In this document: positions 3,262 through 34,496 of the stretch, one piece after another
How positions within the stretch are numbered: the first letter of the stretch is position 1
How the letters are laid out: every line of letters starts with the position of its first letter
Assembly (NCBI GenBank): GCA_017539325.1
Contig: JAFYHD010000064.1
Span: forward strand, 1 to 35,249
Length of the DNA stretch: 35,249 nt
DNA from: a bacterium
Lineage (GTDB): Bacteria > Auribacterota > UBA3054
Reading direction: 5' to 3'
The notes under the pieces: generated by a model
Databases searched by the model: none
What the model was told of the DNA's origin: nothing
Seen by the model: only the letters and a program-made list of their open reading frames with translations
Program-made: the position numbers and the translations under genes

Positions 3262-3301
3262 AAAGCATTATTACAAAAAGGAATATTGCTTTTCGCCATT
3301 T

Positions 3302-3336
3302 TCAGCTGTCGCAAAATTTGCGACAACTGATTTTTT
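3302..3336 (+). terminator. P1: palindrome plus T-run after the GH125 gene
   Basis: Arms 3302-3315 (TCAGCTGTCGCAAA) and 3317-3330 (TTTGCGACAACTGA) pair around a single A at 3316 with one C/A mismatch, and six T follow directly. This has the form of a Rho-independent terminator for the mannosidase transcript. The core GTCGCAAA/TTTGCGAC is also the first member of the palindrome series that continues to 3848, so terminator and repeat identity are not exclusive. Confidence 0.65.
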
Positions 3337-3381
3337 ATTTGAAGACATTTTTCTTACAAATTATTACAAAAATTAATAGAA

Positions 3382-3428
3382 ACCGCATGAATACTTGCTT
3401 TCCTTGCAATTATTAAATATCATGCGGT
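3382..3428. repeat. Inverted repeat ACCGCATGA / TCATGCGGT, 29-base loop
   Basis: Perfect nine-base arms at 3382-3390 and 3420-3428, separated by 29 AT-rich bases. It lies between palindromes P1 and P2 in the non-coding leader of the ORF6N gene and is unrelated to their TCGCAA core. TTGCAA at 3404 and TAATAA at 3428 are spaced 18 bases apart and could form a weak promoter overlapping the right arm. That promoter is a guess. Confidence 0.5.
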
Positions 3429-3439
3429 AATAATGAGTA

Positions 3440-3476
3440 TAAAACTTGAAATCACAAATTGTGATTTCAAGTTTTA
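3440..3476. repeat. P2: perfect 18-bp palindrome (LKSQIVIS-type variant)
   Basis: Arms 3440-3457 (TAAAACTTGAAATCACAA) and 3459-3476 are perfect reverse complements around a single A at 3458. Compared with P3, the inner sequence differs at three positions per arm (CTTGAGGTCGCAA versus CTTGAAATCACAA). All three changes are mirrored in the other arm, so pairing is preserved. Read from 3446 it spells LKSQIVISS. Confidence 0.9.
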
Positions 3477-3499
3477 CTTCACACTAACATAAACGAAAA

Positions 3500-3526
3500 C
3501 TTGAGGTCGCAATTTGCGACCTCAAG
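3500..3526. repeat. P3: perfect 13-bp palindrome (LRSQFATS-type)
   Basis: Arms 3500-3512 (CTTGAGGTCGCAA) and 3514-3526 (TTGCGACCTCAAG) are perfect around T3513. Read from 3501 it spells LRSQFATSR, nearly the same peptide that palindrome P5 encodes inside the ORF6N gene. The upstream in-frame bases add NEN, and a stop follows three codons after the R. Confidence 0.9.
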
Positions 3527-3567
3527 AGAGACGTAACATTTTAAATCATTGAAATAAAACCGCTTCG

Positions 3568-3592
3568 GTGAAGTCGCAATTTGCTACTTCAC
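3568..3592. repeat. P4: 12-bp palindrome, one mismatch, abutting the Shine-Dalgarno
   Basis: Arms 3568-3579 (GTGAAGTCGCAA) and 3581-3592 (TTGCTACTTCAC) flank T3580 with one mismatch. It differs from P5 inside the gene at two of 25 bases. Its right end touches the GGGAGGA ribosome-binding sequence at 3593-3599. Read from 3568 it spells VKSQFATSR, out of frame with the gene below. Confidence 0.9.
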
Positions 3593-3593
3593 G

Positions 3594-3598
3594 GGAGG
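3594..3598 (+). promoter_or_regulatory. Shine-Dalgarno fixing the ORF6N start
   Basis: GGAGG nine bases before the ATG at 3608 selects that codon as the start. The longer frame beginning with TTG at 3581 would translate the right arm of palindrome P4 and has no ribosome-binding site of its own. Confidence 0.75.
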
Positions 3599-3607
3599 AA
3601 GAAAAAC

Positions 3608-4627
3608 ATGATGAAAAATGAAGAAAAATACCCTATTGTTATTCACCAGGTTGATATAAGTCAACTTATCTATACCATTAGAGATAAGCAAGTAATGCTC
3701 GATTATGATCTAGCGTCTTTGTATGGATACAAAGCCAAGCGACTCAACGAACAAGTTAAGCGTAATATTGCGCGATTTCCTGACGATTTTATGTTCCAAC
3801 TAACGCAAAATGAAGTAGTTTCCGTGAGGTCGCAATTTGCGACTTCACCAAATCTAAATTTCGGTACAGAGAAATGGGGTGGCCGAAGAACTCCCCCATT
3901 TGCCTTTACCGAACAGGGAATCTATATGCTGGCGACGATTCTAAAAGGTGAAGTAGCGGAGCAGCAGAGCATTTTTATTATGAGAGCGTTTCGGGAGATG
4001 AGACACTATATCCAGCAGAATAAACAATTCGTAACCAAGAATGAATGGAATCTTCTAAGGGACACAATAGATGAAGATTCTCGTAAATTAAGCGTATGGA
4101 AAGGGAAGACAGATAGCAGAATAAAGGCGATAAACGACAGCATAAAGAAGATCAATGAGAATTTTATTCTGGAAACGGAAATTAAAAATTTTGTCATATA
4201 CAAAGGACAAAAATTAGAATCAGACATGGCATACATAGATATATACAAGCAAGCGGAAAAAAGCATATACGTCATAGACGACTACGTCAATATAAAAACT
4301 CTTCATCTCCTCTCACACAAGAAGACTGGGGTACAAGTTATTTTGTTTTCTGAAAACGGCTTTGGGCGCAGCAAAGATTTTTTGACATCATCAGAAGTCG
4401 ACGATTTTAACAAGGAGTACCCCACAATACTCATAAAAACAAATCCGGATTGCCATGACAGATTTATTATTTTAGACTACCGAACCGAACGCGAAAAAGT
4501 TTTTCACTGCGGGGCGTCAAGCAAGGACGCCGGAAATAAAGTCTGTGCTATAAATGCCATTGAAAGCACAGGTTTGTTACATCCTGTCATCGATAAACTG
4601 CTTTTAAATCAAGATAAAAGTTTATAA
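3608..4627 (+). CDS. ORF6N-domain protein with C-terminal PLD-like domain
   Basis: A 339-residue protein. Residues about 12-110 form an ORF6N (KilA-N-related, PF10543) DNA-binding domain: VMLDYDLASLYG, RNIARFPDDFMFQLT, RSQFATS (74-80) and PFAFTEQGIYML (97-108). A nine-residue stretch (PNLNFGTEK) separates RSQFATS from WGGRR, which are usually contiguous in the family as I recall it. Residues about 140-190 are charged and helical. The C-terminal part has HDRFIILD (283-290), matching the phospholipase-D pattern HxKx4D with Lys replaced by Arg, then HCGASSKD (300-307), so a PLD-like nuclease or nuclease-derived fold is likely. Activity is unknown. Base composition is very AT-rich (17 and 20 G/C in two sampled 60-base blocks, against about 31 in the mannosidase), so the gene looks transferred. 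Four palindromes precede it and a fifth lies inside it. Phage genes and plasmids often carry ORF6N proteins. Confidence 0.88.
   Translation: MMKNEEKYPIVIHQVDISQLIYTIRDKQVMLDYDLASLYGYKAKRLNEQVKRNIARFPDDFMFQLTQNEVVSVRSQFATSPNLNFGTEKWGGRRTPPFAFTEQGIYMLATILKGEVAEQQSIFIMRAFREMRHYIQQNKQFVTKNEWNLLRDTIDEDSRKLSVWKGKTDSRIKAINDSIKKINENFILETEIKNFVIYKGQKLESDMAYIDIYKQAEKSIYVIDDYVNIKTLHLLSHKKTGVQVILFSENGFGRSKDFLTSSEVDDFNKEYPTILIKTNPDCHDRFIILDYRTEREKVFHCGASSKDAGNKVCAINAIESTGLLHPVIDKLLLNQDKSL
3824..3848. repeat. P5: palindrome inside the ORF6N coding sequence
   Basis: Arms 3824-3835 (GTGAGGTCGCAA) and 3837-3848 (TTGCGACTTCAC) surround T3836. The single non-identity is G opposite T, which pairs as G-U in RNA. 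The segment is in frame and encodes V73-R-S-Q-F-A-T-S80, the conserved core motif of the ORF6N domain. It matches upstream copies P3 and P4 closely. Confidence 0.9.
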
Positions 4628-4632
4628 AAAAT

Positions 4633-4661
4633 AAAAAAGCCGCTCAAGGAGCGGCTTTTTT
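4633..4661. terminator. Bidirectional Rho-independent terminator
   Basis: A six-A run followed by GCCGCTC (4639-4645), loop AAG, GAGCGGC (4649-4655) and a six-T run. The 13-bp stem reads as a terminator on both strands, serving the ORF6N gene from the left and the symporter gene from the right. It closes the AT-rich island. Confidence 0.92.
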
Positions 4662-4690
4662 ATTTACAGATTGTTTTTCAAAATGATAAT

Positions 4691-11838: not shown

Positions 11839-11871
11839 AAAAAAGGAGCGGCGAAAAGCCGCTCCTTTTTT
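11839..11871 (-). terminator. Rho-independent terminator after the small lipoprotein gene
   Basis: Stem GGAGCGGC/GCCGCTCC extended by A-T pairs, with a five-base loop and T-runs on both strands. It begins immediately after the lipoprotein stop and separates that operon from ftsK. It could also work on the plus strand, but no plus-strand gene approaches it. Confidence 0.92.
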
Positions 11872-29643: not shown

Positions 29644-29650
29644 AAATTAA

Positions 29651-29678
29651 AAGCGCGCTGATTCAGCGCGCTTTTTTC
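29651..29678. terminator. Bidirectional terminator between tRNA-Glu and rluD
   Basis: AAGCGCGCTGA paired with TCAGCGCGCTT around a central T-rich turn, followed by a T-run on the plus strand and by TTTTAATTTT on the minus strand. It ends the tRNA transcript and overlaps the last base pairs of the rluD stop, so it also ends the leftward operon. Confidence 0.92.
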
Positions 29679-33968: not shown

Positions 33969-34496
33969 CTAAGCCTTCAGTTTTCCTTCCGGTATCTTAA
34001 GTTCCTTCATTACGCCGACCATCAGGTCTTTAGTTTCCTGATCGGGCAGCGCCGCCAGGCACTGGCCCTCCCCCGTCTTCATTATGATGACCGTGGAGGC
34101 GTAGGCGCCTTCTTTCAACTCTTCCACGACGTAAGCCTTGAGTTCCGAGAGCGGCTGGCTCACGTAATCCCCTTTGCGGCTCAAATAATAGGCGCCCTCT
34201 CTTTTTTCAAGGGTGACTCTTATGGCCCTTCTCCTTTCCAACGAGCGCCAGATAAAGGAAATGCCGAAAGCGGCCGCGAGCGCGGAAAAGAGCCTGACCG
34301 GCTCGAAGACTTTTTCGATGTCGCTGCGGCATTGGAAGGCGAAGAAGATCAAAATAAGCGAGAAGATGAGAGCCGTGTTGATAAAGAGCGGCCTCGCGTT
34401 ACGCCAGAAACTGCGCCTCCTTAGGCGGCGCAGTCTCAATAGTTCCTGGAAAGAGCCGGGCTCCTCCCAAACGATCTCTTCGCCTTTTTTGATCAT
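33969..34496 (-). CDS. Unknown protein with two membrane helices
   Basis: A 175-residue protein not recognised by family. The N-terminal part is charged (about 1-33), followed by two membrane helices (about 36-52 and 66-82). The C-terminal cytoplasmic domain (about 93-175) contains KREGAYYLSRKGDYVSQPLSE, a short strand-rich pattern, and ends EGKLKA. The strand pattern could be a small PH-like or YcxB-like domain, but I cannot confirm this. It overlaps the upstream gene by four bases (ATGA) and the MBOAT gene follows after one base, so it is part of the envelope operon. Confidence 0.75.
   Translation of the reverse strand: MIKKGEEIVWEEPGSFQELLRLRRLRRRSFWRNARPLFINTALIFSLILIFFAFQCRSDIEKVFEPVRLFSALAAAFGISFIWRSLERRRAIRVTLEKREGAYYLSRKGDYVSQPLSELKAYVVEELKEGAYASTVIIMKTGEGQCLAALPDQETKDLMVGVMKELKIPEGKLKA

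Follow-up and report, generated by a model that had tools for sequence, protein, structure and literature searches.

The palindromes of an ORF6N gene in the 35,249-nucleotide stretch analysed here (the window) are very probably double-stranded DNA operators for the gene's own product. If the protein does bind its own sites, negative autoregulation would be the probable use. A preliminary description of the window had offered three readings of the palindromes: an operator family belonging to the gene itself, a REP-like mobile hairpin, or a record of local copying. The first is now strongly supported, as residues of the recognition helix were found to determine bases of the palindrome, including bases at synonymous codon positions. 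The emphasis has shifted in one respect: the conserved element is the copy within the coding sequence, not the copies in the leader.

The ORF6N Gene and the Palindromes of the Window

The positions of the gene, its domains and its palindromes are collected in Table 1. The protein matches the PF10543 profile with E = 7.3e-36 (122.8 bits against a gathering cut-off of 27.8), and the flanking genes, a GH125 gene and a sodium-solute symporter (SSF) gene, are unrelated to it according to a Pfam scan. In the AlphaFold model, the recognition helix, which is the second helix of the helix-turn-helix, comprises residues 42–51, and the segment encoded by P5 forms a helix end and a disordered loop. Foldseek matches of the C-terminal domain were led by TrmBL2 (5box, E = 1.6e-5), followed by FAM83, NucT and Zucchini. 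The HxK(x)4D motif of the HKD phospholipase-D nucleases is absent from this domain, where HDR (H282, D283, R284) is invariant in all 43 aligned relatives. Since the fold is nearest to TrmBL2 and the catalytic lysine is replaced, the domain would suit dimerisation rather than cutting, and a role in dimerisation or as an effector is likely. A search by sequence found no relative of the window protein in the PDB. The idea that this is a phage gene was rejected, as only 5 of 50,697 phage records matched the query.

Table 1. Features of the ORF6N locus, in window coordinates.
Feature	Position	Strand	Description
P1	3302-3330	.	RhuM-type palindrome TGTCGCAAA-A-TTTGCGACA, 5' end of leader
P2	3440-3476	.	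leader, TCA class, perfect 18+1+18 (18/18 pairs)
P3	3500-3526	.	leader, perfect 13+1+13 (13/13 pairs)
P4	3568-3592	.	leader, directly 5' of Shine-Dalgarno sequence; one C-T mismatch
P5	3824-3848	.	coding, GTGAGGTCGCAA-T-TTGCGACTTCAC; one G-T mismatch; encodes VRSQFATS
ORF6N-domain gene	3608..4627	+	winged-HTH ORF6N domain and C-terminal PLD-like domain; ATG at 3608 or 3611
Recognition-helix codons (KAKRLNEQVKRN region)	3734..3763	+	K43, R44, E47 = alignment columns 28, 29, 32
Codon of Arg93 (column 76)	3887..3889	+	wing loop; coupled to palindrome pair 10
C-terminal PLD-like domain	4190..4606	+	Foldseek; HDR in place of HxK
Intrinsic terminator of ORF6N gene	4629..4665	+	stem plus T run

All five palindromes are present where the preliminary description had placed them, each with a 1-nt centre, and they are real: the region 3262–3940 holds five, against a mean of 0.05 and a maximum of 1 in 300 dinucleotide shuffles. 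They make up five of the nine strong gap-free palindromes (score ≥ 9) in the window. The others include 11839–11871, 29649–29675 and 34410–34434, the first two of which resemble intrinsic terminators. A common core of the TCGCAA-n-TTGCGA type had been described for all five. This holds for P2–P5, which form one family, but P1 is of a different type, TCGCAAA-A-TTTGCGA, which is common to RhuM genes, and its inner sequence recurs within a RhuM gene (L254/L287).

A count of the palindrome in the rest of the genome had also been proposed. The family pattern, with up to three mismatches, gave nine sites in the 2-Mb genome: P2–P5, another four at the paralogous ORF6N gene L006, and a single chance site with three mismatches; the reversed control pattern gave no match. 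The third ORF6N gene of the genome, L007, has a coding palindrome of its own with the core TCGAAAATTTCGA. Between the window species and a congener, the leader palindromes have changed at 4/118 and the remaining leader at 34/242 (p = 0.0016). P2 and P3 are identical in the congener, and the mismatched pair of P4 is restored there to full symmetry (L022).

A Coding Palindrome in Three Families

The sampling of ORF6N genes relied on the protein profile and at no point on the palindrome. It covered relatives of the window, two other phyla, viral contigs and 80 loci of named genomes (among them Lachnospiraceae, Bacteroidales and Campylobacterota), and gave 263 non-redundant domains. A coding palindrome of 25–27 bp with a score of at least 9 was found at the P5 site in 228 of them (87%), and none was detectable in 13%. 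Synonymous-codon shuffles of the same domains reached this score in only 81 of 5260 cases (1.5%), and the first 150 nt of the domains, taken as a control, contained a palindrome in 1 of 263. The coding palindromes have 63 distinct 13-bp cores, yet 2546 of 2673 positions (95%) are Watson–Crick paired. In 23 of them, the reading frame is shifted, and unrelated peptides such as VVTNCDHL and ELVENFDQF result. Some domains contain two or three in-frame copies; the disordered loop would allow the protein to tolerate both the palindrome-coded segment and such repetition. A protein with two ORF6N domains (L032/L039) carries a coding palindrome in each.

The feature extends to two related families. A palindrome was found at the corresponding place in 23 of 30 RhuM genes (77%; null 4.8%) and in 10 of 14 Bro-N genes (71%; null 1.7%), mostly in reading frames other than that of ORF6N. 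An intact RhuM gene of E. coli likewise carries one. The single usable KilA-N gene had no palindrome in its domain, and neither had the single DinD-like gene examined. A scan of viral contigs for RhuM revealed no relatives, and Rha (PF09669) was dropped as an additional family because its matches were the ORF6N and RhuM genes themselves. On these data, the feature is established for ORF6N, RhuM and Bro-N and for no family beyond them.

The Residue–Base Code

Mutual information between domain columns and palindrome pairs was computed on 192 ORF6N genes. Column 32 carries 1.40 bits on pair 4 (z = 88), and columns 29, 28 and 76 come next, for pairs 5, 7 and 10. The AlphaFold model places columns 28–32 in the recognition helix and column 76 within the loop of the wing. 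The pairing of residue with base is almost deterministic. At column 32, Gln goes with A at pair 4 (81/86), Glu with G (59/59) and Arg or Lys with C; columns 29 and 32 together specify pairs 5–4 (RE with TCG, AQ or VQ with TCA, QR with TGC, NK with TTC, IR with TCC); and Lys at column 28 goes with G at pair 7 in all 101 paired genes. In textbook contacts, Gln reads A, Arg and Lys read G on the other strand (C here) and Glu reads C on the other strand (G here). The same chemistry is found in RhuM, where the residue before the conserved His relates to pair 4 as R/K with C, E with G, and L/M/Q with A.

The coupling was also examined in sister pairs of nearest neighbours. Residue 32 and pair 4 changed together in 26 pairs, one without the other in 5 and not at all in 57 (p = 5e-17), and no other column did as well. 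A code derived from one reading frame predicted 38 of 40 half-sites in a second, held-out frame; at pair 7, it was right for 40 of 46 bases.

The code is also seen in bases that do not affect the protein. The codon of Ser59 is TCA with Gln32 (80/82) and TCG with Glu32 (59/59), and no such link was seen for the remaining Ser codons in these genes (p = 0.31). Codon 58 has G at its wobble position in 100 of 101 genes with K28 versus 6 of 57 otherwise, and Leu57 is encoded by TTG with R76 (95/95) and by TTA with K76 (14/14). The palindromes, their conservation and the code, synonymous bases included, are established from the sequences themselves. Because base identity follows the DNA-reading residues even at synonymous positions, the reading of the palindrome as a site specific for the gene's own product is strongly supported.

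There are misfits. The multi-palindrome genes L058, L127 and L120 each have one copy that departs from their own code, and in L065, the internal copy departs from it and the leader copy fits. In four genes (L007, L208, L215 and L217), VKRN is replaced by VKNN or VRNN and the base at pair 3 is A, not C (TCGAAA); this suggests an additional residue involved in specificity.

Leader Copies

The preliminary description had tied the leader palindromes to ORF6N genes. The link holds for the coding copy, which is nearly universal, but leader copies are a minority: 38 were found upstream of 27 of the 263 genes, versus nine downstream. Most ORF6N genes have the coding site alone, and sites that would fall in the promoter or ribosome-binding region are seen for the window gene and these 27. 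The leader copies lie mostly at −16 to −182 from the start codon. Leader copies resemble the coding palindrome of their own gene more than those of other genes (0.710 versus 0.609 ± 0.028; reached in 0 of 3000 shuffles), and 40 of 80 leader half-sites match the code of their own protein at pairs 5–4 (random 31.5 ± 6.5%). The leader sites are thus mixed, and may serve paralogues or be decaying. A strict matching of leader to internal copies was rejected, the matching being real but partial.

In the window, K28, R29 and E32 predict GTCGC. P3 (GTCGC) and P4 (TCG) agree with the code of the window protein, and the bases of P5 agree with its residues K28, R29, E32 and R76 (alignment columns). P2, with TCA at pairs 4–5, agrees with the paralogue L006 (A29, Q32) and not with the window protein. 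Since P3–P5 fit the window protein, P2 fits L006 and P1 is of the RhuM type, cross-regulation between paralogues is likely. No sigma-70 promoter stands out among those predicted in the window leader.

Proposed Mechanism and Alternatives

Physical binding and dimerisation are inferred from these patterns. The winged helix-turn-helix of ORF6N would act as a dimer, with one half-site per monomer; K43 (column 28) would read pair 7, R44 (column 29) pair 5 and E47 (column 32) pair 4, and the wing, through column 76, would read pair 10. P5 would be an operator inside the gene, placed in codons for a disordered loop that is tolerant of the encoded peptide. Of the further sites, in the interval from the neighbouring gene to the start codon, P3 and P4 would serve the gene's own product, P2 the paralogue and P1 a RhuM-type relative. 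Autorepression would be brought about by occupation of the promoter and ribosome-binding region and by a roadblock to elongation at the coding site. With the operator inside the reading frame, the gene would remain self-contained when it moves, for instance into restriction or CRISPR operons.

Self-binding could be real and yet serve another end, namely the marking or copying of the gene (a spread akin to homing), silencing, or locus protection. This we regard as unlikely, but the occurrence of ORF6N-group genes inside defence operons keeps it in play. Several features make the genes of ORF6N, RhuM and Bro-N look mobile: tandem copies, relics, 18 matches in one genome, and positions inside hsdM-rhuM-hsdS and cas4-BroN-cas1b operons. 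A coding copy far commoner than leader copies also fits. On the other hand, a nuclease-like domain is missing from most ORF6N proteins, the PLD-like domain of the window protein lacks the HxK lysine, and the leader copies cluster close upstream of the start codon as repressor sites do.

That the palindromes are mRNA hairpins, kept for translation control, as an RNase site or as an attenuator, is very improbable. They do fold as stem-loops, and P1–P3 are terminator-like on one strand or the other. However, G-U pairs are not enriched over A-C mismatches (19 versus 15 outside the coding-biased pair 7), and RNA pairing needs no link between base identity and the recognition helix at synonymous positions.

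We give equally little credence to a mobile palindrome of the REP or RPE kind that inserts into permissive loops and leaders. The site in a disordered loop, the repeated in-frame copies and solitary copies at L249 and L253 would suit it. Such an element should be dispersed through genomes away from these genes, but whole-genome pattern searches found copies to be almost absent outside ORF6N genes and their relics, which counts against the REP-like option of the preliminary description. The homologous site is moreover the same in three families, with a sequence dictated by the helix of the host protein. The outlier palindrome loci L250, L252 and L254, considered as dispersed elements, turned out to be ORF6N relics. 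The ORF6N gene and its two neighbours gave Pfam matches to ORF6N, GH125 and SSF only, with no Y1-HUH transposase next to the palindromes. Local copying, the third option, could account for some of the copies in leaders or arrays, but it does not account for the code. A functionless by-product of peptide conservation or hairpin-templated mutation has practically no chance of being right: the LRSQxxTS motif is moderately conserved, but the rarity of the palindrome in synonymous shuffles and the unrelated peptides of other frames oppose it, and the residue–base code at synonymous positions refutes it.

Relation to Known Systems

Intragenic operators are known, such as lac O2 in lacZ, the internal operator of gal and the second site of purR. 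The self-operator proposed here resembles them in being a palindromic site for a dimeric helix-turn-helix protein in a transcribed coding region, where it may act as a roadblock or auxiliary operator. Sites of the lac O2 type are particular to one gene and usually auxiliary, whereas the site of the ORF6N group is near-universal, homologous, kept across reading frames and co-evolving with the recognition helix. The window gene is an ORF6N member of the KilA-N/Bro-N/ORF6N/RhuM group of phage-type regulators (PF10543, PF02498, PF13310), in which two further families have coding palindromes of this kind. The association of a gene with short palindromes is also known from RAYT/REP, and Rickettsia palindromic elements (RPEs) occur in frame in coding regions. 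Unlike these, the ORF6N palindromes are not dispersed, and their sequence is set by the DNA-reading residues of the protein. The archaeal regulators TrmB and TrmBL2, the closest fold in the PDB, also combine a helix-turn-helix with a PLD-like C-terminal fold, but they have another DNA-binding domain and the global TM-score is low (0.29–0.37). A literature search that covered few subscription journals found no paper that deals with palindromes in ORF6N, RhuM or Bro-N genes or with the DNA sequences that their products recognise. Autogenous operators are known as a kind, but a form that is nearly universal, independent of reading frame and co-evolving with the protein has, to our knowledge, not been described.

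Implications and Genomic Settings

ORF6N, RhuM and Bro-N may together be a class of self-recognising genes whose coding sequence necessarily includes an operator that co-evolves with the protein, making protein and site a portable unit; on the present comparison of sequences, this generalisation could equally well prove right or wrong. If it is right, a gene that lands in a defence operon would control its own expression and that of the downstream genes, and each copy in a genome would reveal one protein–DNA specificity pair. Of all that one would want to know about a regulator, the DNA target is usually the most difficult to find out; for these large, widespread families of unassigned function, it would be readable from the coding palindrome of each member. 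The natural covariation would amount to a recognition code of Gln-A, Glu-C and Arg/Lys-G contacts, with two residues for two bases. The role of such genes in restriction and CRISPR operons becomes testable, as does the persistence of an operator in coding sequence across reading frames.

Several loci illustrate these settings. On three alphaproteobacterial plasmids (L326, L328 and L331), RhuM genes stand beside hsdM or between hsdM and hsdS, with reading frames that overlap the type I restriction genes; their coding palindromes could control hsdS. In Arcobacter cloacae, cas4 and cas1b of a plasmid type I-B CRISPR locus flank a Bro-N gene whose coding palindrome is strong (L320). A rumen-type genome, G135 (L058, L335 and L362–L371), has 18 ORF6N profile matches, and some of its genes carry two or three coding palindromes, of which the copy that departs from the code may serve a paralogue. 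A perfect ORF6N-type palindrome, AACTTGAAATCACAATTTGTGATTTCAAGTT, is found at 1062–1092 of L249 with no ORF6N domain within the 1.8 kb examined, and may stand alone as a site or be all that remains of a gene. In many E. coli, rhuM is present only as a short remnant, flanked by a CbtA/DUF4942 gene cluster and setC (L422, L424), and another E. coli strain has an intact copy beside tRNA-Sec (L423).
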